From a virus: a stretch of 20,603 bases of DNA. Made by a program: the position numbers and the translations under genes. The notes beneath the pieces were generated by a model. It worked only from the letters and a program-made list of their open reading frames with translations. It did no database searches and had not been told where the DNA came from. Of the stretch, positions 1,722 through 20,603 are shown in pieces. The DNA lies in the IMG/VR virus record IMGVR_UViG_3300025872_000390, positions 1 to 20,603 of that record; one strand, given 5' to 3'. Numbering within the stretch: position 1 is the first letter of the stretch; each line of letters opens with the position of its first letter.

Positions 1722-1964
1722 ATGAGATATTATCCATTTGGGTCTGGGTCACACACATATTTTCCGGCAACTTCATCATTTGCTGCGTATACAATTGATG
1801 CACTCAGTTATGTAACCGCACTGTCAGCTTCGTACGCAATTCAAGGTCCAAGCGGGTCACAAGGTCCATCGGGTCAGTGTATTCAGCAATCTGGAAGTCA
1901 AGGTCCACAAGGACCATCTGGTAGTCAAGGTCCGATTGGTGAAATCGGTAGACCTGGAGAATAA
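1722..1964 (+). CDS. Collagen-like short fibre protein, 80 aa
   Basis: The ATG follows the preceding TAA by one base and no good ribosome binding site is visible, so translation is probably coupled. Residues 1-41 form a non-collagenous head rich in A, S, Y and T, with an ALSASYA stretch like the alanine-serine repeats that precede trimeric stalks in phage fibres. Residues 42-79 are collagen-like Gly-X-Y triplets (GPS, GSQ, GPS, then GSQ GPQ GPS GSQ GPI GEI GRP) with one interruption around residues 54-57. Collagen-like triplets are known from many phage tail-fibre proteins, where they trimerise. One Cys (53) lies at the interruption. There is no C-terminal trimerisation domain, so it may rely on its two neighbours, which share the same design. 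Confidence 0.7.
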   Translation: MRYYPFGSGSHTYFPATSSFAAYTIDALSYVTALSASYAIQGPSGSQGPSGQCIQQSGSQGPQGPSGSQGPIGEIGRPGE

Positions 1965-2131
1965 TTTATGAAATTTTATCCGCACGGTGGGACGGCAAAC
2001 ATAATATCATATTTGCAAAGTGCAAGCCTTGCAGTATCAGCCTCACATTTATATAATCCAAATAAACCCATTCTTAGTGCATCTCTCGCATTAAGCGCAG
2101 ACATTATATATCAAGGTCCACAAGGACCATC
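1899..2131 (+). repeat. Identical 20-base direct repeat in two collagen-like genes
   Basis: The same 20 bases occur at 1899-1918 and 2112-2131 in the collagen stalks of two adjacent genes, in the same reading frame (QGPQGPS). Each copy contains the small inverted repeat GGTCC-ACAA-GGACC. Exact identity at wobble positions suggests recent duplication or exchange between neighbours. Confidence 0.6.
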
Positions 2132-2363
2132 GGGATCAAATCAGACCGTAACCGGCCCCCAAGGAGTAACAGGTCCAGCAGGTTCAACCGGTCCACGTGG
2201 ATTTGGAAGTTATACGGGAAGTTTGACAACTGCTACTTGTTGTACACCGTTTGATACGTACTGTGTTGGTACTGATTTATATACTTATGATAACAATTGT
2301 GTTGGTAGTTTATCATGTACTGATTATATCGTTTGTGGTGGGTCTAACTCAAATTGTACATAA
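1968..2363 (+). CDS. Collagen-like protein with cysteine-rich C-terminus, 131 aa
   Basis: The start at ATG 1968 lies about ten bases after a GGAG at 1955-1958. The layout is: residues 1-48, an N-terminal head with repeated SASLA/LSASLALSA motifs resembling those of the preceding protein; residues 50-79, a short collagen-like stretch (GPQ GPS, a break, then GPQ GVT GPA GST GPR GFG); residues 90-131, a cysteine-rich tail with Cys at 91, 92, 99, 111, 117, 123 and 130. Seven cysteines in 40 residues is unusual for a virion protein assembled in the reducing cytoplasm. It suggests either disulfide locking after lysis or metal binding. The gene is a paralogue of both neighbours by head and stalk. 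Specific function is not recognised; a fibre or capsid-surface adhesin is the best guess. Confidence 0.65.
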   Translation: MKFYPHGGTANIISYLQSASLAVSASHLYNPNKPILSASLALSADIIYQGPQGPSGSNQTVTGPQGVTGPAGSTGPRGFGSYTGSLTTATCCTPFDTYCVGTDLYTYDNNCVGSLSCTDYIVCGGSNSNCT

Positions 2364-2366
2364 AAT

Positions 2367-2753
2367 ATGTCATTTTATTTTCCATTTAATATTTCCGGTG
2401 TATCTTCCGGATCGATTGTAACTAGTTCTGTTTCTCAGCAATCCGTTACGTCAAGTTTCACCGCTTCTGTTGGCGGTATCGCACAATCTGCCGTTTATGC
2501 GGCAACAATAGGTACTATTGGTCCTAGTGGATCACGAGGAACAGATGCCTCTGGATGTGTTGGTACTCTTCAAGGGCCAACTGGGTCACAAGGACCAACG
2601 GGGACACGGGGGCAGGCAATATATGATTGTCCTGCTGGATATGTTGCGTGTACTGAATTAACACCACCTGTGGGATATAGCATTGTTTGCATTCCGTTAC
2701 CTACACCATGCACGGGTACGACGATTATTTGTCCATCATCATACACACCTTGA
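2367..2753 (+). CDS. Collagen-like protein with cysteine-rich C-terminus, 128 aa
   Basis: This third member of the set starts three bases after the previous stop, with no obvious ribosome binding site, which suggests translational coupling. Residues 1-50 form a Ser/Thr/Val/Ala-rich head opening with MSFYFPF, parallel to the MRYYPFG and MKFYPHG openings of the two preceding proteins. Residues 52-82 hold interrupted Gly-X-Y triplets (GPS GSR, then GPT GSQ GPT GTR G). Residues 83-128 form a Cys/Pro-rich tail with Cys at 88, 95, 108, 115 and 122, plus Cys64 inside the stalk. The Cys pattern is not obviously the same as that of the neighbour, so the tips may be diversified versions of a shared scaffold. 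It is the last gene before a roughly 50-base gap and the replication-type helicase pair. Confidence 0.65.
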   Translation: MSFYFPFNISGVSSGSIVTSSVSQQSVTSSFTASVGGIAQSAVYAATIGTIGPSGSRGTDASGCVGTLQGPTGSQGPTGTRGQAIYDCPAGYVACTELTPPVGYSIVCIPLPTPCTGTTIICPSSYTP

Positions 2754-2803: not shown

Positions 2804-3025
2804 ATGACAAATACGGTTCCAGCACCATTAGCGCTACGAAATTTAATTGAAAGTAATAATCAATTATTAAAAATCTATCAATCAGAGTTGACTGCTAAAG
2901 TTGCACAAGCCAACGAAGAAATGATGAGAATGTTAGGACTTGACCCAAATGACGGATGGCGATTAGACCTAGATACATTTACTTACGTTAAGGTCGAAAA
3001 AACAAATGATACACCAGTCAGCTGA
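2804..3025 (+). CDS. Small conserved-looking protein, 73 aa, upstream of the helicase
   Basis: ATG 2804 follows a purine-rich GGCAGG stretch. The protein is predicted largely helical at the N-terminus (residues 8-45, with LRNLIESNNQLLKIY and VAQANEEMM), possibly a short coiled coil, followed by LGLDPNDGWRLDLDTFTYVKVE. This DGWRLD-type ending recurs in small uncharacterised phage proteins as I remember them, but I know no function. The last 20 bases overlap the start of the helicase gene in another frame, indicating translational coupling and a likely linked job, for example a helicase accessory or a regulator. That last point is inference. Confidence 0.6.
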   Translation: MTNTVPAPLALRNLIESNNQLLKIYQSELTAKVAQANEEMMRMLGLDPNDGWRLDLDTFTYVKVEKTNDTPVS

Positions 3026-4895
3026 ACAGGCAATACTCACGTTTGGAAAGTTTAAAGGTTATTCACTTGCTCACGTATACTACAACAATCAGTCATACCT
3101 TCAATGGATGACACAAACCGTTGGTATACCTGAAGTCTGGAAAGAAGCGGCACAAATGACGCTGAAAGGTGAGGATATTTCCCACCTTAAAATCGCAAAG
3201 ACGAATAACCCGACTTCCACATTTACACCACAAGTTTCGACAGACACCACAGTTTCTATTCATTTAAAGGATAGTAAAACTGCGGTTGTTGTCATGCCAT
3301 ATAATCCCAACTTGATGGCGAAGTTCAAGTATGAAGTCGATGGACGAAAGTGGAATGGAGAAGAGAAGTGGTGGGAGTTTCCAGCCGTCCATCTCCCCAA
3401 GGCGTTTAATGTCTTTGGACAAAATAATATCAAGTGTGATGAGAAGGTATTGAAACTCTTGGAGAAGTTAAAAGACCGCCGTGAAGATTTGGATGAGATT
3501 CGGGTCAAAGAAGATGTGGAGTTTGACATTAAAGGGATGCAACTCCAACTATATCCATACCAGAAAGTCGGTGTTAAATTCGTGGAACGGGCAGACGGTC
3601 GGTGTCTCATCGCAGATGCGCCTGGTCTGGGAAAGACTGCACAAGCAATTGGATTCGCACAACATAAGAATTTAAAAACAATCATCGTCTGTCCACTCTC
3701 CGTTGTGGTGAATTGGCAACGTGAAATTAAAAAATTTACCGGAAAGGAGAGTACTGTATGGGATAGTAAAAACTATTATGGAAAGCTTAGCAATCAGTTT
3801 CATATTGTTCATTATGATGCCGTTGGTAAGGTGGTCGGTGATTTACGGAAGCAAGACTTTGACCTCCTTGTTTGTGACGAAGCAACCTACCTCAAAAACC
3901 GACAAACCATCCGAGCCAAAAGTATCCTAGGGTCATATAAAGAACGACGGAAATATCCAGGCATCAAAACGAAGTACTGTATCTTCCTGACAGGTACTCC
4001 GGTGATGTCCCGTCCTATTGAAGCATTTGCATTGTTGAATTTCCTCGACAAAGACCGTTTCAATAATTTTTTCCATTTCACCCAACGGTACGGCGGGTGG
4101 AAGGGTGAGGCACCACGTAACCTTCAAGACCTCCACGACCGTACAAAAGATTTGGTCATCCGCCGTAAGAAAGAACAAATCTTGACCGAACTTCCCGCAA
4201 AGCAACGAAATGACCTGTATGTGGAATTGACGAAGGATGAACAGAAGCAATATAAGGAAATGTTACGAGAAGTGTTTGGTCGGTGGAAGGTTGAGAAACC
4301 TACTATTGGTCACATGCCGAAAATCCAAGAGTTCTTGATTGAAAAGAAGATGCCACGGTTGGTGGAAATGGTGGACGAGTTCTTGGACAACGATAAACCT
4401 ATTCTTATTTTCAGCAACTACCTCGCTCCACTGAAGTTCCTCCAAGAACACTATGGGGAGAAGTCGGCTATACTGACGGGTGAAATGAATAGTAAGGAAC
4501 GTCAGAAATCTATTGACCGGTTGACCAGTGGAGAAGCTAAAGTAGGACTATTCAGTTTGATGGCTGCCGGTATGGGTATTGACGGACTACAGAAACAGAT
4601 AGATACCGTCGTATTTCTTAATATGGACTGGACACCCGCAAACCACGAACAAGCAGAAGACCGTACCCATCGTATCGGCCAAACTAGTCAGGTGCAAGTC
4701 TATTATATGGTATGTGTAGATACTATTGACGAATATATGCGGGATATCCTTAAAGATAAACAAAGGGTCGCAGATTTGGTGGTGGACGGGGCATTGGTCA
4801 CACCCGAACGTTCTAAGTCGTATTTTAAGGAGTTTGTGTCCAAAATCAGTCAGGTTTATAAAGAGGATATTTCCACCAAAAACGTAGACGATTGA
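3006..4895 (+). CDS. SNF2-family helicase/annealing translocase (UvsW-position)
   Basis: The 629-residue protein has the motifs of a superfamily 2, SNF2-like ATPase: Q-type LYPYQKVGVKF at 182-192, Walker A DAPGLGKT at 204-211, Walker B DEAT at 291-294 (usually DEAH/DEAQ), motif III LTGTP at 328-332, and motif VI QAEDRTHRIGQ at 549-559. Residues 10-35 (TFGKFKGYSLAHV, then YLQWM) resemble the small C-terminal domain found in ExoX-type nucleases. Residues about 95-135 resemble the segment before the motor in SMARCAL1-like enzymes. Such enzymes remodel or reanneal branched DNA and regress forks; in T4 the comparable job is done by UvsW. The gene sits immediately upstream of a gp26-like gene, which matches the T4 order uvsW...26 as I recall it. 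The ATG overlaps the preceding gene by 20 bases. Confident for the family, less so for exact function. Confidence 0.9.
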   Translation: MIHQSAEQAILTFGKFKGYSLAHVYYNNQSYLQWMTQTVGIPEVWKEAAQMTLKGEDISHLKIAKTNNPTSTFTPQVSTDTTVSIHLKDSKTAVVVMPYNPNLMAKFKYEVDGRKWNGEEKWWEFPAVHLPKAFNVFGQNNIKCDEKVLKLLEKLKDRREDLDEIRVKEDVEFDIKGMQLQLYPYQKVGVKFVERADGRCLIADAPGLGKTAQAIGFAQHKNLKTIIVCPLSVVVNWQREIKKFTGKESTVWDSKNYYGKLSNQFHIVHYDAVGKVVGDLRKQDFDLLVCDEATYLKNRQTIRAKSILGSYKERRKYPGIKTKYCIFLTGTPVMSRPIEAFALLNFLDKDRFNNFFHFTQRYGGWKGEAPRNLQDLHDRTKDLVIRRKKEQILTELPAKQRNDLYVELTKDEQKQYKEMLREVFGRWKVEKPTIGHMPKIQEFLIEKKMPRLVEMVDEFLDNDKPILIFSNYLAPLKFLQEHYGEKSAILTGEMNSKERQKSIDRLTSGEAKVGLFSLMAAGMGIDGLQKQIDTVVFLNMDWTPANHEQAEDRTHRIGQTSQVQVYYMVCVDTIDEYMRDILKDKQRVADLVVDGALVTPERSKSYFKEFVSKISQVYKEDISTKNVDD

Positions 4896-9044: not shown

Positions 9045-9302
9045 ATGGACCGATATATTATTCCTCTTCAAGTAGATACAACAAAAGATGTTCCATATTA
9101 TAAAACTGATATCGTTACACCGATTCCATCGGAAGATATTCCATACTACTATGTGACGCAAGAAGGTGATAGGTTAGACACTATCTCTTCATTATTTTAC
9201 GATACTCCAAACAATTGGTGGGTACTTGCTAAAGCAAATAATTTAGCAAATGGTACGATAGCGATACCTGCCGGAACCAAGTTATTTATACCTAATATAT
9301 GA
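9045..9302 (+). CDS. LysM-like baseplate protein (gp53/gpX type), 85 aa
   Basis: The 85-residue protein ends in a LysM-like fold: YYVTQEGDRLDTISSLFYD, then NWWVLAKANNL and IPAGTKLFIPN. This is the same signature as in small baseplate proteins of contractile tails such as P2 gpX and the LysM part of T4 gp53. In virions these LysM-like domains help hold hub and wedges together; peptidoglycan binding is possible but not required. The stop codon overlaps the start of the next gene in an ATGA arrangement (9299-9302), so it is translationally coupled to the M23 hub protein. No strong ribosome binding site is seen before ATG 9045. Family call is good; exact structural position in the particle is inferred. 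Confidence 0.8.
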   Translation: MDRYIIPLQVDTTKDVPYYKTDIVTPIPSEDIPYYYVTQEGDRLDTISSLFYDTPNNWWVLAKANNLANGTIAIPAGTKLFIPNI

Positions 9303-12300
9303 CAATACGTTTTGATTCGTTACCGATAGCAACACCTCGACTAGTAATTACCAGTCCATTTGGGCAACGGTCGTTATATGACGCAGAAGAACCTCATAAC
9401 GCGGTAGATATTCGGGGAGCAGAACGTACTCCGTTATTGGCCGTAAGCGATGGTGTTGTGCATCGGATAGTAACCGATGGTAGATGTGGTACCGGGATTG
9501 TATTGGTACACAATGAAGTGGGGGCACCTATGAGATATGGACGACCCCCACAGTATACTACCACATATTGTCATATGGAAGAAAATTCTATATCAGAATT
9601 TAATCTTCAAGAAGGTGTATCGGTTAAAGCAGGACAACCAATTGGTAGAGTGGGAAAAACAGGACGAACATACGGCGCACATTTACATTTTATACTTAAA
9701 CAAGTTAATGGAAATCCTGATGCTCCAGGAGATACGTTTAGAGTTCCTGATACTCCTATAGACCCCACTCAATATTTAATTGCCGTTGACCGACGCGCCG
9801 CGGTTGCTGCATTGGCACAAGCAACCATACCATCACCATCTACGAGTGGTATGTCTCCTTATATATCTTCGTTTGAATCATTCCATCCTAACATTCAATA
9901 TGAATTGAATCGTAGACAGTTAGCAACGGAAACGGCCAATAGTCACATGCCGTTCATCAAATTAACATCATTATTAAAGGTCGATAAAGAAAATTTGAGT
10001 GGGGCGACGGAAGCATGGTGTCCCACATTAGGTATACATGGGCAATCTAATGAAACATTTGATAACATTTATTTTCCACAAGGAAATAATAGTATTGTAG
10101 CGTATGCTACAACAAAACGTGATGGACGATTTATTAGAGTTCCAGTATTGGTGCAGAATGCCGAAACTGACGCAAATAATATTCCAGTACCCGGTATTAC
10201 AAGTGTAACTACAGAACGTAGTACCTCTGGGCCGATGGGGGTCCGTGGTGGATTGTTTAAAGCAAACATAACGATAGTAGCATATTCGGTTGGTCAAGTA
10301 AACGCATTACTTACATACTTTTTACGACAATCCACGAACGTATTACTTGAATTTGGCCGGGTATCAAGTAGTACTACTGAATCTAGTATAACCCCCTTCA
10401 ATTGGAATCGGGATAAAGATGTTATTTCCGCAGAAGTCGTAAAGCTTATCACCGACCAAGCAGAACAGAAAAAATTTATAGATGAAACGGTGCACGGAAA
10501 TTATGGCAACTACGAGGCACTCATTGGTTATGTTGCTAATTTTAATTTTAAATACACAAAAAATAATACATATGAGATAACACTAACAGTGCATTCCTCT
10601 CAACAGTTTGAAGTCCCCACAATACATACAGGTGCTAAGGCTACTTGTACGTCGATTGGTGATGGTTGTAAAACATTTGATATTAAAGAATATTTTGATG
10701 AATCATATTCATGGAAAGTGAATTCATTTAAAAAATTAATGGAGAGTGTTGAAAGTGGTCCGTTAAGAGAAAAATGGCAATCGCATGTAATACCGTTACG
10801 ACAATCGGAAACTAATAACAACCAAGCACAGTCGGGGACGCATAACGCCGAAACTAATACTCGCGGAGGATATTTAATTTCGTGGGAATTCTTTGTTAAC
10901 GTACTATTAAATGATGAACAACAAGGAGTGGCTAGTGTTTTACCGCTCGATTCGTTTGGATTGTATGGAATAGGGTTTATTAAATCAGCATTACCCCGAC
11001 CAGTAACTAATACCGTCGAAGCGGATGATAGTAAACTAATTTCAAGTGAAGTAGGATATCATCCGTATTTACGCTCGGTCAATCCTGGAGTAATGGTCAT
11101 CTATAATCCAGTTGCGAATGGAGAAGCAGATGCTCAAGCAACTACCCAAGATGTTACAAACGTATTGACGAACAACAACGTTGTACTGGAAGATTCTGGA
11201 ATTTCACAAAGTATAAGAACGTCCGTTGTTGGAGCATTTACTAATTTAAGTGGGGATAATTTATTACCGGGGTCATCCTTACTAACGAAAGGTATATGGT
11301 TGAACAGCAACATAATTATGGAAGCGTTTACATCCGCAGACTCCATAACAGCCGCAATGAACTATCTTTTAAGTAAAATGAATTCCGCAACGGAAGGATA
11401 CTGGAACTTACAATTGTTATCAAACGATAATACAAATCCAGGATTGCATGTGATTGATATGGGATTATCAAAAAATAAGCCAAACCAATCGTTACGGCCA
11501 TTACCGATTAATATCACATCGGTGTCAAATATTAGAGATTCACTTACAAATAAAAAGCAACTTATATCAAGTTATTATGGAGATGTAGGTACAGGAACAC
11601 CAAAATACACGTATGTATTCAATAGAAAACTACAAACGGGTACGAGTGATGATGTGGGAAGCGATTTATTAGATATTAACGTTGAGTTTGGAATGCCTAC
11701 GATGATATCTGTACAAGCAATTGCTGGGGTCGGTGGCGTTGCTCAAAAGAGCGCATGGCAATCAATCGATATTGAAGGTCTTAATAAATTAAAATTATTA
11801 CCTGATTTGTATGTAAAATGTCCACCCAACACACCCGAATCCGGATCGGCAACGTGTCCAGATGACCCTATTCTTCGTTTGGAAACTCAGTTAAGATTTG
11901 CACAGCAAGATGTTGCTACAGCAGAAGCACAACAACGTTTGGCTGGTTCTGAAGCTGCTTATAGAACCGCTACTGTTAGAGTCAACCAAACAACTGAAGA
12001 ACGGGCAAACATACAAAACGAACTAGCAGGCATCAGACTCAATAATCCAAATCTATTACCAATCATCAGAGAATATAATCATTTAGGTAATGCATTGAAG
12101 TTTATCGAATTTAATCCATCACAAATGGTAATGAAATTAAACGCAGATGCAGACAATAAACGTGGAAAAGTACACGCATTCAGTAGTTCTAACTTGACAA
12201 AAACATTAGTTGATTTAACTTTACCTGGTATTGGTGGTATTTACTTGTGGCAATCATTTTTGGTAGACCGTATCCCAAGTATACTAAATCAGGGGTATTA

Positions 12301-12391
12301 TGTAGTAGTAAAAGTTGCTCACGAATTTACTGTGGACCGTGGGTGGATTACTAAGATACAAGGCCGATTCCGTTATCTACCTGAGGAATAA
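9299..12391 (+). CDS. Baseplate hub protein with N-terminal M23 metallopeptidase domain, 1030 aa
   Basis: Residues about 14-165 are an M23 (lysostaphin-type) endopeptidase with all expected active-site residues: H33 and D37 in HNAVD, H92 in the TTYCHM strand, and H128/H130 in GAHLHF. Such enzymes are zinc-dependent and cut peptide bridges in peptidoglycan; in a tail hub this would open the wall during injection. Residues about 210-420 (TLGIHGQSNETFDN; GPMGVRGGLFKANITIVAYS; NALLTYFLRQSTNVLLEFG) resemble hub/spike scaffolds of large phages. A coiled coil spans about 858-915, after a Cys838-Cys853-type pair. The last 60 residues (LPGIGGIYLWQSFLVDRIP to QGRFRYLPEE) look like the conserved end of hub proteins. 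It starts inside the LysM gene stop (ATGA). Hub plus lysin in one chain is a functional analogue of T4 gp5/gp27. Confidence 0.8.
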   Translation: MTIRFDSLPIATPRLVITSPFGQRSLYDAEEPHNAVDIRGAERTPLLAVSDGVVHRIVTDGRCGTGIVLVHNEVGAPMRYGRPPQYTTTYCHMEENSISEFNLQEGVSVKAGQPIGRVGKTGRTYGAHLHFILKQVNGNPDAPGDTFRVPDTPIDPTQYLIAVDRRAAVAALAQATIPSPSTSGMSPYISSFESFHPNIQYELNRRQLATETANSHMPFIKLTSLLKVDKENLSGATEAWCPTLGIHGQSNETFDNIYFPQGNNSIVAYATTKRDGRFIRVPVLVQNAETDANNIPVPGITSVTTERSTSGPMGVRGGLFKANITIVAYSVGQVNALLTYFLRQSTNVLLEFGRVSSSTTESSITPFNWNRDKDVISAEVVKLITDQAEQKKFIDETVHGNYGNYEALIGYVANFNFKYTKNNTYEITLTVHSSQQFEVPTIHTGAKATCTSIGDGCKTFDIKEYFDESYSWKVNSFKKLMESVESGPLREKWQSHVIPLRQSETNNNQAQSGTHNAETNTRGGYLISWEFFVNVLLNDEQQGVASVLPLDSFGLYGIGFIKSALPRPVTNTVEADDSKLISSEVGYHPYLRSVNPGVMVIYNPVANGEADAQATTQDVTNVLTNNNVVLEDSGISQSIRTSVVGAFTNLSGDNLLPGSSLLTKGIWLNSNIIMEAFTSADSITAAMNYLLSKMNSATEGYWNLQLLSNDNTNPGLHVIDMGLSKNKPNQSLRPLPINITSVSNIRDSLTNKKQLISSYYGDVGTGTPKYTYVFNRKLQTGTSDDVGSDLLDINVEFGMPTMISVQAIAGVGGVAQKSAWQSIDIEGLNKLKLLPDLYVKCPPNTPESGSATCPDDPILRLETQLRFAQQDVATAEAQQRLAGSEAAYRTATVRVNQTTEERANIQNELAGIRLNNPNLLPIIREYNHLGNALKFIEFNPSQMVMKLNADADNKRGKVHAFSSSNLTKTLVDLTLPGIGGIYLWQSFLVDRIPSILNQGYYVVVKVAHEFTVDRGWITKIQGRFRYLPEE

Positions 12392-12396
12392 CTACT

Positions 12397-12738
12397 ATGT
12401 TTGATGCTCCATTAAGTAACAGACCAAAAATTACAAACCAAGACATATTAGCTGGATTTGTTATGCGATACTTTGTTCAGTATGTTCCCACGAAAAAAAT
12501 TATTGAAATAGATAAAAAACAATATGACGTATTTAAAAATAACCCATTTTACCAACCACTTGAAATGAAATGGATTATTGGTGGATATGACAAAGATACT
12601 ACCGCTACGGATGGACAAATTGTGTATGGGGCTGGACATAAGAACCAAGTGTCATTAGATTTCTACGATAAGAAGATGCCGGGTCTTAAACATATGATAC
12701 GAAATCCACTCGAATACTTCAGCGGAAAGGTTTTATAA
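12397..12738 (+). CDS. Small baseplate-associated protein of unknown function, 113 aa
   Basis: ATG 12397 lies about nine bases after GAGGA at 12384-12388. The protein is compact and charged, with VMRYFVQYVPTKKIIEID (22-39), QYDVFKNNPFYQ, LEMKWIIGGY and a GAGHKNQVSLDFYDKKMP ending segment. I remember proteins of this shape (an RYFVQ(Y/R) opening, a W-x-I-x-G core and a G-x-x-x-N segment) next to hub genes in marine myoviruses, always without assigned function. No membrane segment or signal peptide is present. It is AT-rich like the preceding tail genes, while the next gene, starting at the very next base, has clearly different codon use. It is thus the last member of the tail block. Its operon with the hub gene suggests a hub or wedge accessory. 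Confidence 0.6.
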   Translation: MFDAPLSNRPKITNQDILAGFVMRYFVQYVPTKKIIEIDKKQYDVFKNNPFYQPLEMKWIIGGYDKDTTATDGQIVYGAGHKNQVSLDFYDKKMPGLKHMIRNPLEYFSGKVL

Positions 12739-14013
12739 ATGGTAATTAATGGTTATGAACAATTGACACACCTACACAACCGCCTTCGGGAAGAGACTGC
12801 GTATGTTTATCCCGTGGCGGTTGACGCATTTCTGCATTCTTCGCAAAATCGTGTGGCGTCACTCCATTTCCTTTTCGACGATGGAACCTCGTATACCGTA
12901 TCGGTCAATCATCCCGACGCCCCACACTTCCAGATAGACCTTAGTGATGCTTATAAGTTGGTCACCCTTCATAAAAAAGAATTACAACATCTGACCAACG
13001 CACAGAACGTAGTTGATTTGGCATCGATGTTACATCTCAATTATGATGTGATTCCGTTGTATCGGGAATATTATACGATGGCGATTCACCAGATTAAAAA
13101 TCAGTTTAAGTTCAAGAACCTCCATTATAGTGTCCCACTAACTTCGTGGGTGGAAACCGCGGAGGCGTTCTTACAACACTGTAAGCATATGTACGACCGA
13201 TGCCAGTCCACTGAACAGACATCTGCGTTTGAATTCATCAATCAGATTACGATTCCTACATTGACCCAGATTGAGCAAGCTGGATTGTGGACCACCGACA
13301 ATCAGTTCGTCTATTCTGATTATAACATTTATACCTCCACGGGTCGTCCAAGTAATGCATTCGGTGGAATCAACTTTGCCGCTCTCAATAAGAATGATGG
13401 TACCCGTGAGAAGTTTGTCAGTCGGTTTGGAGAGAACGGAACCCTTGTCCAGTTTGACTATGAAGCGTTCCATCTTCGTCTTGCAGCAGACCTGATTGGA
13501 TACAAACTCCCCGAAAGTTCTGTTCACGAATTCCTTGCAAAGCAGTATTACGGAACCGACCAAATCACCGAAGAGCAGTATGAGGAATCTAAGGCTCGGA
13601 CTTTCGGTCTAATGTATGGATATAGCGACGATACGGGTGGTGTAGAGTTCTTCCAAAAGCTCAAAGAGTATTCGTCCGATTTGTGGGAGAAATACCGTCA
13701 GAATGGATTTGTATTGTCAGGAACGGGTCGCAAAGTGATGGTTGTAGACTCGACCAGTAACAAGGTATTCAACTATATGATGCAATTGACGGAAACAGAA
13801 GAAGCGATTGTACGGGTTCATAATGTCTGTAAGTATCTGGAATCGTTCAACTCTAAAGTCATTCTGTATACTTATGATGCTATTCTCTTGGATGTATTGA
13901 ATGATGAATTGGATATTATGGAAAATGTGGCACAAATATTGAGTATGGGTGGATACCCCGTCCGTCAGTATCGTGGTCACAATTACAATGGAATGAGTTT
14001 ATATAAAATATAG
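12739..14013 (+). CDS. Family A (Pol I-like) DNA polymerase, short and divergent, 424 aa
   Basis: The C-terminal 240 residues hold the Pol I palm and fingers. TGRPSN (201-206) matches the TGRLSS element. Motif A is DYEAFHLR (D240). Motif B is K285-ARTFG-LMYG (K285, F289, Y293, equivalent to E. coli K758, F762, Y766). Q349 matches Q849. Motif C is TYDA (D380). Both metal-binding aspartates are present, but E710 is His245, R754 is Tyr281, and HDE is Tyr-Asp-Ala. Residues 1-110 look like a shrunken 3'-5' exonuclease domain without the acidic DxE residues (AVDAFL at 27-32). It should be the replicative polymerase, replacing the family B enzyme of T4. AAAGG at 12726-12730 is the ribosome binding site. 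Codon use matches the replication genes rather than the tail genes before it. Activity is inferred. Confidence 0.85.
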   Translation: MVINGYEQLTHLHNRLREETAYVYPVAVDAFLHSSQNRVASLHFLFDDGTSYTVSVNHPDAPHFQIDLSDAYKLVTLHKKELQHLTNAQNVVDLASMLHLNYDVIPLYREYYTMAIHQIKNQFKFKNLHYSVPLTSWVETAEAFLQHCKHMYDRCQSTEQTSAFEFINQITIPTLTQIEQAGLWTTDNQFVYSDYNIYTSTGRPSNAFGGINFAALNKNDGTREKFVSRFGENGTLVQFDYEAFHLRLAADLIGYKLPESSVHEFLAKQYYGTDQITEEQYEESKARTFGLMYGYSDDTGGVEFFQKLKEYSSDLWEKYRQNGFVLSGTGRKVMVVDSTSNKVFNYMMQLTETEEAIVRVHNVCKYLESFNSKVILYTYDAILLDVLNDELDIMENVAQILSMGGYPVRQYRGHNYNGMSLYKI

Positions 14014-14068
14014 TGTTATTGAAGTTAATTTGATACTTATTAGGAGTGGTACACCTAACGAGTCTCCT

Positions 14069-14482
14069 ATGAACAATTACACAACAGAAACACAATTGTT
14101 ATGTACTTTCATCCCAGCAGACAGCTTACAAGAAAGTATTGAAAACATAAAAAAGTCCTATATTTTAGCGTTCAATAACGTATATGTGTTGGAAAATGTA
14201 GATGATGCAAATCAACTCATATTAACCTACAATATCGTTGTTGGTTCGTTGAAGTCACCATACGCTCCACCACCATCCACCATATCGGTTCACAGAAAGA
14301 AGCAAACGAATACGATATATACTATTAATGCATTAAACGCATTAATTGCAAGTAAAAACGGTGGGAAGATTGACAAGTCCTATAAGATTGATTGGGATGA
14401 ATTAAAGAATTCTATTTTAGTTACCGCACACGGTCAATTAAAAATAGTTAAAACCAAAATAAAAGAAATATTAAGCTTCTAA
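14069..14482 (+). CDS. Conserved-looking protein of unknown function, about 137 aa
   Basis: The frame is open from TTG 14030, but ATG 14069 is the better start because protein-like sequence begins there (NNYTTETQLLCTF). An AGGAG at 14042-14046 is 22 bases upstream of the ATG and could pair with CTCCT at 14064-14068, so initiation may be controlled by RNA structure. Notable segments are YILAFNNVYVLENVDDANQL, TYNIVVG, STISVHRKKQTNTIYTINAL and KIDWDELKNSILVT. I recall similar HRKK-x-TNTxYTINALN proteins in T4-like phages of marine bacteria, with no assigned role. It is AT-rich, unlike the polymerase upstream and SSB downstream, and sits between two replication genes. The mix of basic and hydrophobic segments without membrane spans suggests a small cytosolic protein, perhaps a replication or transcription cofactor (inference). 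Confidence 0.65.
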   Translation: MNNYTTETQLLCTFIPADSLQESIENIKKSYILAFNNVYVLENVDDANQLILTYNIVVGSLKSPYAPPPSTISVHRKKQTNTIYTINALNALIASKNGGKIDKSYKIDWDELKNSILVTAHGQLKIVKTKIKEILSF

Positions 14483-14582: not shown

Positions 14583-15371
14583 ATGGCACTAGACATCAAC
14601 GCATTAAAGAGTAAGCTCAACAGTTTCAAGCGTACCGGCGGTGGGGACCGTGATACCGCTATCTGGAAGCCGAAGGAAGGAAAGACCGTCATCCGTATCG
14701 TCCCGTGGAAGGATAACCCCGAGAATCCCTTTATTGAACTCTACTTCCACTATCTAGGCAACAAGACCCATCTCTCGCCGCTCTCGTATGGCAATCGTGA
14801 CCCGATTGCGGAGTTTGCTGATGCACTCCGTTCTGACCAGTCACGTGACCCGAAGGAGCGTTACGCTGAGGCTCGTCCGTTCATGCCGAAGCTCCGTACT
14901 TATATCCCTGTCATCGTTCGTGGTGAAGAGGATAAGGGTGTTCGGTTCTATTCGTTCGGTAAGACGGTGTATCAGGAACTTCTCTCTTACATCTCTGACC
15001 CCGATTACGGCGATATTACCGACCCTAAGACTGGTCGTGACATTGTAGTTGAGTATATCCCGAAGGAGAAGAGCGATACCAATTTCGCTAAGACTTCGGT
15101 GAAGGTCAAGCCGTCTCAGACTCCGCTTTCGACTGACGCTGCTCAGATGAAGGTCTGGTTGTCAGAACAGCCCGATATTAAGGAGCTGTATACTGAGCCG
15201 ACCTATAATGAGTTGAAGGTCACGCTCGAGAAGTATCTTGACCCTGATAATTCTGTTATCACCCCTGCCCGTGAAGCCGAGGCTCCGAAGCCGGTCGCTA
15301 CCACGGCAGCAGCTCCGAAGGAGAACGTCAAGAACGCTGTTGATGCGTTTGACGAGTTGTTCAACGATTAA
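14583..15371 (+). CDS. 32: gp32-like single-stranded DNA-binding protein, 262 aa
   Basis: ATG 14583 follows GAGG at 14571-14574. The protein has the gp32 layout: a basic N-terminal arm (MALDINALKSKLNSFKRTGG), a core opening with IWKPKEGKTVIRIVPW and continuing FIELYFHYLGNKTHLSPLSYG, and an Ala/Pro/Lys-rich linker leading to an acidic end (DAFDELFND). The arm serves cooperative binding and the acidic tail usually recruits replication partners. The zinc-binding Cys/His set of T4 gp32 is missing: there is no Cys in the core, as in some distant phage homologues. It has its own strong promoter, an inverted repeat in the leader and a terminator-like hairpin downstream, so it is probably a single-gene transcript made in quantity. 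Codon use is strongly biased to AAG, CGT and GC-rich codons. Confidence 0.85.
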   Translation: MALDINALKSKLNSFKRTGGGDRDTAIWKPKEGKTVIRIVPWKDNPENPFIELYFHYLGNKTHLSPLSYGNRDPIAEFADALRSDQSRDPKERYAEARPFMPKLRTYIPVIVRGEEDKGVRFYSFGKTVYQELLSYISDPDYGDITDPKTGRDIVVEYIPKEKSDTNFAKTSVKVKPSQTPLSTDAAQMKVWLSEQPDIKELYTEPTYNELKVTLEKYLDPDNSVITPAREAEAPKPVATTAAAPKENVKNAVDAFDELFND

Positions 15372-15381
15372 TTAACCAAAG

Positions 15382-15431
15382 ACACGTAGCGTGCTAGGTA
15401 GCCTCACAACTACCTAGCGCCTGCGTGTTTT
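15382..15431 (+). terminator. Rho-independent terminator after the SSB gene
   Basis: The arms 15382-15401 and 15410-15428 pair almost completely: CTAGGTAG with CTACCTAG next to an 8-base loop, and ACACG with CGTGT at the base, with a few mismatches between. A short TTTT run at 15428-15431 follows. It lies 11 bases after the SSB stop codon and would end or reduce transcription into recA. Confidence 0.8.
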
Positions 15432-15450
15432 GTTACATATAAGGAATCAT

Positions 15451-16611
15451 ATGGCAAAAGAAACCAAAACAAAAAAGACTAGTCCATCAGCAGACCGTGA
15501 TGAACTGGCACAAGTTATCGCAGATAGCTTGAATAAGTTGTACAAGGATGGACAAGTTGCATACTTCCTTGATGGTGAGGAAGAAACTCCTACGGATTTG
15601 ACTGATTTCATTTCCACTGGTAATACGATGTTGGATATCGCAATCAGTAATCGTCCACACGGTGGTATTGCCGCTGGTCGTATTACTGAATTGACTGGAC
15701 TAGAAGCATCTGGTAAGTCACTCGTTGGTGCATCATTGATTGCGACTACACAGAAGCGCGGTGGTGTTGCGGTCTTGATTGATACCGAAAACGCAGTGAA
15801 CGATGAGTTCTTCTCCGCAGTTGGTGTGGATATGAAGAAGCTCGTATATGTTCAACACGATACCGTTGAGGATATTTTTGACTCTATCGTGAACATTATT
15901 GAAAAGGTACGTGCGTCTGCGAAGAAGGATAAGTTGGTCACGATTGTGGTTGACTCCGTTGCTGCCGCATCCACCAAGACGGAAATGGCTGCAGACTTTA
16001 ATAAGGATGGTTACGCAACTGCGAAGTCCATCATTATCAGTAAGGCAATGAGAAAGATTACCAACCTTCTTGGTCGTGAGAAGATTGCTCTCGTATTCAC
16101 CAATCAGCTCCGTTTGAAGATGAACGCTCCTGCGTTCTCTGACCCATACACCACTTCTGGTGGTAAGGCAATCGGATTCCACGCATCCACTCGTATCCGT
16201 CTGTCCCAGATTGGGAAGTTGAAGGATTCGGCTGGCAACATTATTGGTATCACCACGAAGGCGGTTATCACCAAGAACCGTTTGGGTCCGCCGTATCGTG
16301 AAGCTGAATTCAACATTTACTTCAATCGCGGTATTGACGATTACAGTAGTTGGTTGGATGTCTTGAAGGAGAACGGTATTATCAAGCAAGCAGGTGCGTG
16401 GTATTCTTATGAGGATGAGAAGTTCCAAGGTAAGGAATTTCCAGCGTTCCTCGAAGCTGACCAAACACGTAAGAATGACTTGTACGATAAGATTTGTGAA
16501 GCACTCATTATGAAGTATGAGAAGGACTTTGACCCGTCTGCGGTCAACAAGGAGTCCGCAGAAGATGAGGACGAAGTATCACCATCTAAAAAGCAATTAC
16601 TAAATGACTGA
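15451..16611 (+). CDS. recA: RecA-like recombinase, 386 aa
   Basis: I start the gene at ATG 15451, behind AAGGA at 15441-15445; the in-frame TTG at 15430 lies inside the terminator T run. The Walker A motif is GLEASGKS (83-90), followed by VLIDTENAV with the position of RecA E96 (about 108-115), Walker B VTIVVDS (D168), and the L2 region FTNQLRLKMN with PYTTSGGKAIGFHAS (216-246). These match bacterial RecA better than T4 UvsX. It forms filaments on ssDNA for strand exchange in recombination-dependent replication and repair. The C-terminus is acidic (ESAEDEDEVSP), as in RecA, where it tempers DNA binding. The last 8 bases overlap the next gene, so nuclease and recombinase are coupled. Confidence in the family is high. 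A dedicated promoter is not evident after the upstream terminator. Confidence 0.92.
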   Translation: MAKETKTKKTSPSADRDELAQVIADSLNKLYKDGQVAYFLDGEEETPTDLTDFISTGNTMLDIAISNRPHGGIAAGRITELTGLEASGKSLVGASLIATTQKRGGVAVLIDTENAVNDEFFSAVGVDMKKLVYVQHDTVEDIFDSIVNIIEKVRASAKKDKLVTIVVDSVAAASTKTEMAADFNKDGYATAKSIIISKAMRKITNLLGREKIALVFTNQLRLKMNAPAFSDPYTTSGGKAIGFHASTRIRLSQIGKLKDSAGNIIGITTKAVITKNRLGPPYREAEFNIYFNRGIDDYSSWLDVLKENGIIKQAGAWYSYEDEKFQGKEFPAFLEADQTRKNDLYDKICEALIMKYEKDFDPSAVNKESAEDEDEVSPSKKQLLND

Positions 16612-17644
16612 TTTATTGAAGGTGTTTGATAGTATGCAGTTTGACAATAAGGACATTGGATTCAACTCCCGTGTCCTTATTGTTGACGCACTCAACACAT
16701 TTATGCGGAGTTATGCCGCTATTCCCACCCTGGATGAAGATGGTAATCATATCGGGGGAATGGCTGGATTTATGAAATCTTTGGGGTTTGCTATTCGTAG
16801 TTTCAAACCTACCAGAGTTGTATTGGTATTTGACGGGAAGGGTGGGTCACAACGTCGAAGGAAGATTTATAAGGAATATAAGGCAAATCGGAAACCGCCG
16901 ACTCGTCTGAATCGTTCGTATGATATGACCACCGATGAACAAGAACGGGAGAATATGAAGTGGCAGTTGGTGTCACTCGTAGAAATGGTGGAATGTTTAC
17001 CAGTTTCCATTCTTGCTCTGGATAATATTGAAGCAGACGATACTATCGCATATATGTCGGAATTGGTCACAAAGAATGGTGGTACATCCATCATCTATTC
17101 AACAGACAAGGATTTCTTACAGATGGTAAGTGATAGTGTCAAACTATACAACCCTGTCAAGAAGAAAACGTTTGATGTAGATGTTGTATTGGAAACCTAC
17201 GGCGTTCACCCATCCAACTTTGTATTTTATCGGTCACTTCTTGGAGACAAGAGTGATAACATTGATGGAATCAAGGGAGCTGGGGAAAAAACTGTATTGA
17301 AGTATATTCCAGAATTGGCTGACCCGAATGTTGAAGTTAATTTGGATTTAATTGAACAAAAATATGCTGATATTAAAAAGAAGCCGAAGTTAGTAGAAAA
17401 CATTTTAGATAATACCAGTATAGTAAATAGAAATTTGGAATTAATGAATTTGCACGATGTGAATATTAATATTGATGCAAAGATGAAAATATTACATAAA
17501 TACGAAGAAGGATGTCCACCAATTCGTAAAGCGGACTTGACAAGACTGATGGTTCGTACTAAGATTATTAGTAGTATTCAGAATTACGATGAATGGATTA
17601 CATTTACTTTTACGCCTTTAGCGAGATATCATGGTAGACCATAA
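16604..17644 (+). CDS. 5'-3' exonuclease / flap endonuclease (FEN, T4 RNase H-type), 346 aa
   Basis: The PIN-like nuclease core has the acidic metal ligands of the FEN/T4 RNase H/Pol I 5' nuclease family: D28 in VLIVDALN, D77 in VLVFDGKGG, E143-D145-D146 in NIEADDTIAY, D168 and D170 in YSTDKDF, and D215/D218 in GDKSDNI. These are followed by the helix-hairpin-helix-like GIKGAGEKTVLKY (222-234). The RRRKIYKEYKANR segment (84-96) forms the helical arch. It removes RNA primers and flaps on the lagging strand, a need left open by a polymerase without a 5' nuclease. The ATG overlaps recA and the stop overlaps the helicase gene by 14 bases. The last 100 codons are clearly more AT-rich than the first 220, as if of separate origin. 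Confidence 0.9.
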   Translation: MTDLLKVFDSMQFDNKDIGFNSRVLIVDALNTFMRSYAAIPTLDEDGNHIGGMAGFMKSLGFAIRSFKPTRVVLVFDGKGGSQRRRKIYKEYKANRKPPTRLNRSYDMTTDEQERENMKWQLVSLVEMVECLPVSILALDNIEADDTIAYMSELVTKNGGTSIIYSTDKDFLQMVSDSVKLYNPVKKKTFDVDVVLETYGVHPSNFVFYRSLLGDKSDNIDGIKGAGEKTVLKYIPELADPNVEVNLDLIEQKYADIKKKPKLVENILDNTSIVNRNLELMNLHDVNINIDAKMKILHKYEEGCPPIRKADLTRLMVRTKIISSIQNYDEWITFTFTPLARYHGRP

Positions 17645-19013
17645 GAACTACGACAAGAATGTAGACACGTTGGCTAAGTTCGGCCCGAGTTTCCAGGCGA
17701 AAGCTGTGGCAGCTATGTTGAACTCACCCGACTTCCTTGCACAATCCTATGACGTTATCAACCCAAACTTCTTTGAGTTGGATGCGAATCGTTGGATTGT
17801 GCAGACAGCCTTGGATTATTTTGATGAATACAAGACGTTACCAACGTTGGAAGTATTCAAGGTCGAGATGAACAAGGAAGTCAAGGACGATACGCTTCGT
17901 ACTGGTATCGTCGAATCGTTACGTGGTATTTTCCAGAAGATGAAGGACAACGATTTGGACTACGTTCAGGATAGTTTCTTGGATTTCGCTAAGAATCAAA
18001 CGTTGAAGTCTGCTATCATTCGTTCCGTTGACCTGCTTCAGATTGGTCAATATGGTGAAATCAAAGTATTGGTGGACAATGCTCTTCGGAGTGGTCAACC
18101 CAAGACCGTTGGTCACGATTGGAAGAAGGATGTTGAGAAGCGACTGACGAAGGATGCTCGTAATACGATTCCTACGGGGTGGGATGCACTTGATACACTT
18201 ATCGGTGGTGGATTGGCTGGTGGTGAGTTGGGTGTGGTCATCGCTCCGTCTGGTGTCGGTAAGAGTTGGGCACTTGCAACGATTGGAGCAAACGCTCTTA
18301 GAGCTGGAAAGAAGGTTGTTCATTATACGTTGGAATTGAACGAGAACTACGTTGGGTTGCGTTACGATACTATTTATACTGGTATTGAGCCGGGGAAGAT
18401 TCCAGAACATCCTGATATGATTAAGGATTTGGTGGAAACGATTAAGGGTGAAATTATCATTAAGTATTATCCCGCTCGTACTATTACTTCCCACACGATT
18501 CAAGCCCACGTACAGCAGATGGCATCGTTGGGATTCAAACCCGACCTTATTATCGTAGACTATGCAGACTTGATGAGTGCGAATGCCCGAACGGATGCAC
18601 GTTATCAAGAGTTGGGTGCAGTTTATGAGGAACTTCGTGGATTGGCTGGTGAACTCCAAGTTCCGATTTGGACGGCTTCACAGACCCAGAGAAGTGCCTT
18701 GCAGGATGAAGTCATTCAGGCGGACAAGATTGCAGAGTCTTATAGTAAGATTATGACAGCCGACTTGGTACTCTCAATCTCTCGTAAGTTAGAAGATAAG
18801 GTTCATAAGACGGGTCGCGCCCATATCATTAAGAACCGATTCGGGTCTGATGGTCAAACGTTCCCGATGATTATTGACGCAAGTGTAGGAAAGATAGAGA
18901 TTTACGACGAATCCTCCGCAAAGGGGATTATGTTGAAGAAGCAGATGGAAAATGGTGAAACGGTTACGAAACAAAACCTCGCAAAGAAGTTATTGGAGAT
19001 GGATTTGGATTAA
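17631..19013 (+). CDS. DnaB/gp41-type replicative DNA helicase, 460 aa
   Basis: The protein has an N-terminal helical domain (about 1-160), a linker, and a RecA-like helicase core. Landmarks: TGWDALDTLIGGGLAGGEL (182-200), Walker A APSGVGKS (205-212), HYTLELNE with catalytic E235, Walker B LIIVDYADLM with D310, the glutamine switch TASQTQRSA (348-356), and the arginine-finger region IIKNRFGSDG (R403). The spacing fits DnaB and T4 gp41. It should form a hexamer that unwinds the fork 5' to 3'. The ATG at 17631 lies inside the nuclease gene end. No primase domain is fused and no primase gene is visible here, so priming depends on a gene outside the window or on the host. A loader (T4 gp59-like) is also not seen. 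Confidence 0.92.
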   Translation: MVDHKNYDKNVDTLAKFGPSFQAKAVAAMLNSPDFLAQSYDVINPNFFELDANRWIVQTALDYFDEYKTLPTLEVFKVEMNKEVKDDTLRTGIVESLRGIFQKMKDNDLDYVQDSFLDFAKNQTLKSAIIRSVDLLQIGQYGEIKVLVDNALRSGQPKTVGHDWKKDVEKRLTKDARNTIPTGWDALDTLIGGGLAGGELGVVIAPSGVGKSWALATIGANALRAGKKVVHYTLELNENYVGLRYDTIYTGIEPGKIPEHPDMIKDLVETIKGEIIIKYYPARTITSHTIQAHVQQMASLGFKPDLIIVDYADLMSANARTDARYQELGAVYEELRGLAGELQVPIWTASQTQRSALQDEVIQADKIAESYSKIMTADLVLSISRKLEDKVHKTGRAHIIKNRFGSDGQTFPMIIDASVGKIEIYDESSAKGIMLKKQMENGETVTKQNLAKKLLEMDLD

Positions 19014-19102
19014 AAAATATCGTTGGGTAATCACCGAATTTTTCACGTAACACCGTAGTATTTATTTAACCCCATACCCCTAACGATTTGGAGCAAGAAG
19101 TT
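19014..19102. other. 89-base leader before the ribonucleotide reductase
   Basis: The gap is AT-rich with a GGAG at 19090-19093 that serves the reductase. It contains ACCGTAGTAT at 19052-19061, identical to ten bases around the SSB promoter (14509-14518). I see no TTGACA-type element and no convincing terminator; a weak long-distance pairing between ATCGTT (19019-19024) and AACGAT (19082-19087) is probably chance. Confidence 0.4.
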
Positions 19103-20603
19103 ATGCAGTTAGAATCTAAGATTTTGTCAGAAATCACAACGTTTATGAAGTATGCGAAGTACCTTCCGAAGAAGCAACGCCGTGAAACGTGGAAGGAACT
19201 CGTTGATAGAAATAAGGCTATGCACTTGGAAAAGTTTCCCAAGTTAGCAAAGGAAATTGAAGCAGCATATGAATTCGTATATGATAAGAAGGTGCTCCCA
19301 TCCATGCGTTCACTCCAATTCGCAGGGAAGCCAATTCAAATCAATAACGCACGTTTATACAATTGCTGTTTCCTTCCAATCAATCATACAGACGCATTTA
19401 GTGAAGTAATGTTCTTGTTGCTTTCTGGAACGGGTGTTGGGTATTCCGTACAGAAGAATCATATTGAACAACTTCCACCTGTGAACAAGCCAACCAAGAC
19501 TCGTCGTTACCTCGTCGGTGATAGTATTGAAGGGTGGGCAGATGCGGTCAAGGTGATGATTGAAGCATATATGAAGGGTAAGTCACTTCCAGAATATGAC
19601 TTCTCTGATATCCGTCCGAAGGGTGCATTATTGCTCACCTCTGGTGGAAAGGCACCTGGTCCTGAACCATTGAAGGATTGCTTACACAATATCCAAAAGA
19701 TTCTTGACCGTAAGCAAAATGGTCAATTCCTATCCACGATTGAAGTTCACGATATTCTTTGCTTCATCGCTGATGCAGTTCTTTCTGGTGGTATTCGTCG
19801 TTCCGCAATGATTTCATTGTTTGATTTGGACGATGATGATATGTTGACTTGTAAGTTCGGCAACTGGTGGGAAACGAACCCGCAACGTGGTCGTGCAAAC
19901 AACTCAGCAGTTATCGTTCGTCACAAGATTGAAAAGGAAGTATTCTTGGAACTCTGGAAGAAGATTGAAATGAGTGGTTCTGGTGAACCTGGTTTCTTCT
20001 TCACGAATGATGCAAATTGGGGATTGAACCCGTGTGCAGAAATTTCTCTCCGTCCATTCCAATTCTGTAACTTGACCACCATCAATGCTGGTGACATCAA
20101 GGACCAAGATGATTTCAACGCACGTGCGAAGGCAGCAGCATTCATTGGAACGTTGCAAGCCAGTTACACCAACTTCCACTACCTGAGAGATATATGGAAA
20201 AAGACGACAGAAAAGGAAGCACTCATCGGAGTCTCAATGACTGGAATAGCTTCTGGTCCAGTCTTAGAACTCAGTATGAAGGAGGCGGCAAATGTAGTGA
20301 AGGAGGAAAATGCGCGTGTGGCGGAACTTATCGGGACAAACAAGGCAGCACGTACTACTACTGTCAAACCCGAAGGCACCTCGTCATTAGTCCTCGGAAC
20401 CTCTTCGGGAATTCACGCATGGCATAATGATTTCTACATTCGTCGTGTCCGTGTTGGAAAGAACGAAAGTATCTACCAATACTTGATTGAGAATCACCCA
20501 GAAATCGTGGAAGATGAATTCTTCAAGCCGAAGCAACAGGCAGTTATCTCTGTTCCACAAAAGGCACCAAAGGGTGCAATCACTCGTCAAGAATCTGCAC
20601 TTG
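19103..20603 (+). CDS. nrdJ: Class II (adenosylcobalamin-dependent) ribonucleotide reductase, 3' end missing
   Basis: The frame is open from ATG 19103, behind GGAG at 19090-19093, to the window end: 500 codons without a stop. NPCAEIS places the thiyl-radical Cys at C311 with N309 and E313. C322 in FCNLT follows exactly 11 residues later, the same spacing as C408 and C419 in the Lactobacillus leichmannii enzyme. The N-terminal partner of the redox pair is C88 or C89 (YNCCF). KPEGTSS (422-428) is the phosphate-binding loop. No ATP-cone is seen at the N-terminus. It converts ribonucleotides to deoxyribonucleotides with a B12 cofactor, needs no oxygen and no NrdB partner, and would feed the adjacent replication genes. 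The C88-to-C311 spacing is about 65 residues shorter than in the Lactobacillus enzyme, as I recall it. Confidence 0.9.
   Translation, partial: MQLESKILSEITTFMKYAKYLPKKQRRETWKELVDRNKAMHLEKFPKLAKEIEAAYEFVYDKKVLPSMRSLQFAGKPIQINNARLYNCCFLPINHTDAFSEVMFLLLSGTGVGYSVQKNHIEQLPPVNKPTKTRRYLVGDSIEGWADAVKVMIEAYMKGKSLPEYDFSDIRPKGALLLTSGGKAPGPEPLKDCLHNIQKILDRKQNGQFLSTIEVHDILCFIADAVLSGGIRRSAMISLFDLDDDDMLTCKFGNWWETNPQRGRANNSAVIVRHKIEKEVFLELWKKIEMSGSGEPGFFFTNDANWGLNPCAEISLRPFQFCNLTTINAGDIKDQDDFNARAKAAAFIGTLQASYTNFHYLRDIWKKTTEKEALIGVSMTGIASGPVLELSMKEAANVVKEENARVAELIGTNKAARTTTVKPEGTSSLVLGTSSGIHAWHNDFYIRRVRVGKNESIYQYLIENHPEIVEDEFFKPKQQAVISVPQKAPKGAITRQESAL

Follow-up and report, generated by a model that had tools for sequence, protein, structure and literature searches.

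Reduced, divergent family A DNA polymerases have already been described in phages. The divPolA1 group was named from 14 phages, in which the polymerase has a truncated thumb and an inactivated exonuclease and is encoded alongside a regular polymerase, and its replication neighbourhood was read as involvement in replication (Yutin et al. 2024, PMC11348598). The main text of that paper makes no mention of E710, R754, a steric gate, ribonucleotides or an obligate companion gene. The divPolA2 proteins of barbaviruses are similarly thumbless, exonuclease-less divergent PolAs found beside another polymerase (PMC11348598). Full-length PolAs of ∼890–925 aa are encoded by SPO1-like Herelleviridae (SBSphiC, LysYB1, EalM-132), in an operon slot preceding genes for a gp32-like single-strand DNA-binding protein (SSB), RecA and a 5'-3' exonuclease. 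Among family A polymerases, E710, an active-site glutamate that helps to exclude ribonucleotides, is regarded as almost universal, and the thumb is considered fundamental to the way in which these enzymes hold DNA.

We have analysed a complete IMG/VR phage record of 20,603 bases, here termed the window, whose 424-aa ORF at 12739-14013 (+) encodes a family A polymerase (Pfam DNA_pol_A, 1.3e-9). This polymerase belongs to divPolA1 (PMC11348598), a clade that has already been named. With the described proteins it shares the truncated thumb, the inactivated exonuclease, retention of the palm aspartates and the downstream replication genes; the window adds a new member of the family, from a different lineage whose closest kin encode PolB. 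The divPolA1 of Flavobacterium phage immuto, 29% identical to that of the window (tblastn 3e-45), falls in the same clade. Novelty at the family level is modest. New here are a fixed histidine at the E710 position, the probable derivation of the gene from an SPO1-like operon and an obligate companion of 137 aa without a known fold; as far as searchable, neither the fixed histidine nor the companion has been described.

Domain losses and active-site register

The features of the polymerase gene are as follows.

12739-14013, + strand: divPolA1, reduced family A DNA polymerase of 424 aa (Pfam DNA_pol_A; AlphaFold2 and Foldseek to Klenow; clade member)
12739-13128, + strand: remnant of the 3'-5' exonuclease domain, ∼residues 1-130, without catalytic carboxylates (homologue conservation, fold, PMC11348598)
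13285-13320, + strand: site of the missing thumb, residues 183-194 (10-31 residues versus 112-202 in full-length controls)
13345-13347, + strand: R203, equivalent to Pol I R668, kept (alignment, 120/120)
13456-13479, + strand: motif A, DYEAFHLR, with D240 (D705) kept and H245 (13471-13473; E710) replaced
13579-13620, + strand: motif B, YEESKARTFGLMYG, with Y281, K285, F289 and Y293 (alignments; position 754 varies within the clade)
13783-13794, + strand: Q349 (Q849) kept, plus E352 (alignments, conservation)
13873-13881, + strand: motif C, YDA (Pol I H881-D882-E883; alignments; YDA or YDS clade-wide)

The Pfam match spans just part of the protein length. Structure prediction, suggested as a check in the original prediction, produced an AlphaFold2 model (pLDDT 91, pTM 0.89, 49 homologues) with Klenow as its top PDB match along the whole chain (Foldseek; TM 0.80 on query length, E 9e-19). 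The fold of the exonuclease remnant is retained in this model, which aligns along the entire Klenow fragment, and the N-terminus thereby differs from the unrelated globular domain of divPolA2 (PMC11348598). A search for an invariant acidic residue within residues 1-130 of the 49 homologues detected none; global hhalign is unreliable before residue 150, and this part was judged without it. Between the Klenow positions bracketing the thumb, only 10-12 residues are present in the window polymerase and its kin and 23-31 in other homologues, compared with 112-202 in full-length canonical controls. Thus, the thumb is essentially absent and the proofreading domain is predicted to be non-working, while the exonuclease-palm-fingers fold and the register of motifs A, B and C remain those of Klenow and T7 gp5, from which the protein further differs by E710H, R754Y, H881Y and E883A. 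The missing thumb, which the original prediction overlooked, is a larger anomaly than the residue changes and could abolish useful DNA binding.

The register was determined by profile-profile alignment and by mixed alignments containing ten canonical family A enzymes in total, in which one cut-off row was left out. A single unambiguous register relative to E. coli Pol I was obtained across the three motifs: D240 corresponds to D705, H245 to E710 and R247 to R712 in motif A, with H263 equivalent to H734; Y281, K285, F289 and Y293 correspond to R754, K758, F762 and Y766 in motif B; and R203, Q349 and Y379-D380-A381 correspond to R668, Q849 and H881-D882-E883. The residues originally read from the sequence are thereby confirmed, namely histidine in place of E710, tyrosine in place of R754 with K758, F762 and Y766 kept, YDA in place of HDE, and retention of D240, D380, Q349 and R203. 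A register error at 710 and 754, considered there as a source of misreading, is excluded as all alignments agree. The description of the replaced residues as near-invariant holds for E710 and R754, both retained in 10/10 canonical enzymes, but does not extend to E883, because motif C is HDE in three of the ten, HDS in five and HDQ in two, leaving Ser or Gln in 7/10. In the phage Tt72 polymerase the E883 position is Ser, with S616A retaining 76% activity, and the E710-equivalent mutant E389A retains 35% activity (PMC9324360). Loss of E883 is common and mild. An additional residue, E352, is nearly invariant and peculiar to the divPolA1 clade, the aligned canonical enzymes having Ala, Gly or Ser. 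With respect to the gate, T7-type RNA polymerases have glycine at this position; histidine is bulky by contrast, and the sugar gate may be kept in divPolA1.

Conservation and origin of the clade

Homologues were obtained from IMG/VR (at least 590 confirmed stretches), two MAG contigs and phage records of three kinds (Flavobacterium phage immuto, Microcystis phage Mel-JY01 and an uncultured phage of 484 kb). In a first set of 120 homologues of 400-455 aa (52 at <90% identity, lowest pair 22%), D240, H245, K285, F289, Y293, Q349, E352 and the YDA of motif C are invariant, the last in a set biased for motif C as loci were gathered partly with a pattern containing LYTYDA; Y281 is present in 111/120. 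A second set, gathered via companion gene X, contained 54 polymerases, 42 of them non-redundant. Histidine occupies position 710 in all 53 that are readable there; of the 54 motif C sequences, 34 are YDS and 20 YDA, and position 754 is Tyr in 34, Val in 10, Arg in 5, Ile in 3 and Gln in 1. Over the clade as a whole, 754 is mostly Tyr, also Val, Ile, Thr or Gln and sometimes Arg.

On a palm-fingers tree divPolA1 is monophyletic, occupying one side of a branch with an SH-aLRT of 100. This tree requires one change at position 710, seven at 754 and thirteen at 883, so that E710H, with a single origin, is the only one of the three replacements that truly defines the clade. The suggestion that His, Tyr and YDA are all fixed within a clade is thus upheld for H710 and rejected for the other two, as more than half of the polymerases found through the companion gene have YDS and Val, Ile, Gln and Arg occur at 754. 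A large natural clade with a fixed H710, a missing thumb and strong purifying selection renders the requirements for E710 and for the thumb directly testable.

The reduced size and unusual residues could be taken to indicate a degenerating relic of a replaced polymerase, the condition that had been named as refuting the original prediction. Among close homologues dN/dS is 0.08-0.11, indicative of purifying selection on a copy that is not degenerating, and the gene is intact in 120 homologues with the histidine fixed; decay is therefore rejected as scarcely credible. A catalytically dead subunit of a replication or recombination complex, with a structural or DNA-binding function, would be consistent with loss of the thumb and exonuclease and, in most members, of the triphosphate-binding residue R754. 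R668, D705, Y766, N845, Q849 and D882 are, however, invariant or nearly so in the clade and K758 and F762 almost so; D705, D882, Y766 and Q849 occur in every readable member, and only a few members deviate at K758 or F762. Some of these residues ought to disappear from a dead enzyme, making such a role improbable.

Full-length neighbours on the tree are suggestive of origin. SPO1-like PolAs, together with that of Listeria phage LIS04, lie near divPolA1, although this placement depends on branches with an SH-aLRT of 92%, a stem of 1.4 changes and a small number of canonical rows. In addition to their shared operon slot, they are already without E883, motif C being HDS. They differ in that the thumb and the exonuclease carboxylates (D-x-E) are in place and E710, R754 and H881 are present. 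The gene at the position of X was compared as a possible relative of X, and no homology was found. Combined, these observations suggest that divPolA1 is likely a reduced SPO1-like PolA from a PolA-SSB-RecA-FEN operon, and the simplest history would be that an SPO1-type PolA was reduced once bulk replication had passed to another polymerase.

Operon, second polymerases and companion protein X

Proceeding along the window, tail and baseplate genes are followed by a 113-aa ORF, the polymerase, X and a series of replication genes.

14069-14482, + strand: companion protein X, 137 aa, basic (an upstream TTG start at 14030 is possible)
14583-15371, + strand: gp32-like single-strand DNA-binding protein (Pfam gp32, 2.6e-13)
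15430-16611, + strand: UvsX/RecA recombinase
16604-17644, + strand: 5'-3' (flap) exonuclease
17631-19013, + strand: DnaB-like replicative helicase

The contig then ends within a B12-dependent (class II) ribonucleotide reductase gene, of which the beginning is present (19088-20602, +). The order divPolA1-X-gp32-UvsX-5'-3' exonuclease-DnaB is kept in relatives wherever contigs reach; in some, other genes amounting to a few kb stand before X or gp32. In this respect it differs from the variable neighbourhood of divPolA2 (PMC11348598).

The window, a 20.6-kb fragment, contains no second regular DNA polymerase in that stretch. Sixteen large relatives were scanned, and 15 of them encode a full PolA, PolB or PolC in addition to divPolA1; the sole record with none is G010, a partial contig. 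PolB is present in 12/16, including G011, G012 and G013, whose divPolA1 proteins are 74-78% identical to that of the window; the 484-kb phage has PolC besides PolB. A regular full PolA with E710 and R754 occurs in three more (immuto, G005 and G007). Of the mechanistically distinct replicative clade put forward in the original prediction, the distinct clade is borne out, being monophyletic, under purifying selection and with His at 710 throughout, while the term replicative is unsupported because the thumb and proofreading are missing and another full polymerase is present in nearly all of these relatives.

The relatives' gene content also bears on whether divPolA1 could be a PolA descendant that acts like a primase or extends RNA primers, an altered gate admitting rNTPs so that RNA or mixed primers are made. 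Replacement of the gate residue across the clade and the missing thumb are compatible with this, as is a motif C of YDA or YDS, which resembles the HDS carried by T7-type RNA polymerases. HDS is, however, present in ordinary SPO1-like DNA polymerases too, and the residue at the gate is bulky rather than Gly. In addition, DnaG is annotated in immuto and several other relatives carry DnaG-like ORFs (TOPRIM/Zn-ribbon, ∼300-330 aa), so that in these genomes divPolA1 does not stand in for a missing primase. The presence of DnaG-like genes in the same genomes weakens the idea, and we consider it quite improbable.

Protein X (pI 8.9) is strongly conserved, with the motif HRKK-T-N-T-x-Y-T-I-N, in which an invariant HR-K is followed by N-T-x-Y-T-I-N, and its model is confident (pLDDT 92). 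X is present in exactly the six of 50,697 phage records that hold divPolA1. Conversely, 80 loci were found via X, of which 54 contain divPolA1 and the remaining 26 have too little upstream DNA; divPolA1 is thus present in 54/54 loci with enough upstream sequence, and no locus with ≥5.5 kb upstream is without it. Comparison of X with Pfam, PHROGs and the PDB, by sequence or fold, gave nothing credible and no processivity factor or thumb. BFVD yielded one unnamed phage homologue followed by weak Rep-like matches at E ∼0.1, which are not relied on. The 113-aa gene adjoining the 5' side of the polymerase (12397-12738, +), near the baseplate genes, is equally clade-restricted (5/50,697 phage records), and co-occurrence of X and divPolA1 alone therefore does not show interaction. 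The strict companion does provide a concrete partner to assay.

These observations bear on the possibility that divPolA1 is a true replisome polymerase, of one strand for example, in two parts, with X or another phage protein providing a thumb or processivity in trans. Its first place in a conserved replication operon, read as replication by Yutin et al. (PMC11348598), the strict co-occurrence with X, and the basic, strongly conserved nature of X are all consistent with this. The second polymerases speak against it, co-occurrence with X may only mark the lineage, since the upstream gene is equally restricted, and X matches neither processivity factor nor thumb; we therefore regard a replisome polymerase as unlikely. 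The more specific proposal of a two-subunit polymerase, in which X, as a new fold, would supply DNA grip and processivity to a thumbless H710 core, is doubtful, but would if true constitute a natural test of the need for the thumb and E710. A search of the relatives for a T4 gp45-type clamp gave nothing above the curated cut-off, which remote clamps could escape.

Proposed role of divPolA1

An accessory, non-proofreading polymerase for gap filling, recombination or lesions is the most likely role of divPolA1 judging from its sequence and surroundings. The ancestor would have been an SPO1-type phage PolA, full-length and replicative, of which palm, fingers and the two catalytic aspartates were retained while thumb and 3'-5' exonuclease activity were lost; E710 would have been replaced by His once, at the clade base. 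Bulk phage replication would fall to a different polymerase, which in the closest relatives is of family B, and divPolA1 would have kept its place in the operon with the SSB, UvsX, flap exonuclease and helicase genes, in an accessory capacity. There it would extend DNA by short stretches, adding dNTPs distributively at gaps, recombination intermediates or lesions. It would not proofread and its intrinsic processivity would be low, with partners (companion X and gp32) and other residues replacing the contacts of the thumb and R754. H710 would probably still act as a bulky sugar gate and keep the contact to Y766. We give this account, taken as a whole, about an even chance of being correct; the many replication genes around divPolA1 could equally well point to a central replication role, the view to which Yutin et al. 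lean.

Other features of the window and its relatives were observed. Amid the tail genes, three ORFs at 1722-2753 (+) encode collagen-like GPSGSQGP/GPQGPSG repeats, two of them with Cys-rich ends, and a SNF2-type helicase at 3006-4895 (+) carries an ExoX-like C-terminal segment at its N-terminus. A 1030-aa baseplate-region protein (9299-12391, +) has an N-terminal M23 peptidase domain and is likely a tail lysin. In Flavobacterium phage immuto (L156, 9608-27972), a full 7-deazaguanine DNA modification set, consisting of FolE, QueD, QueE, QueC, a QueF-like protein and DpdA, is located near its regular PolA.
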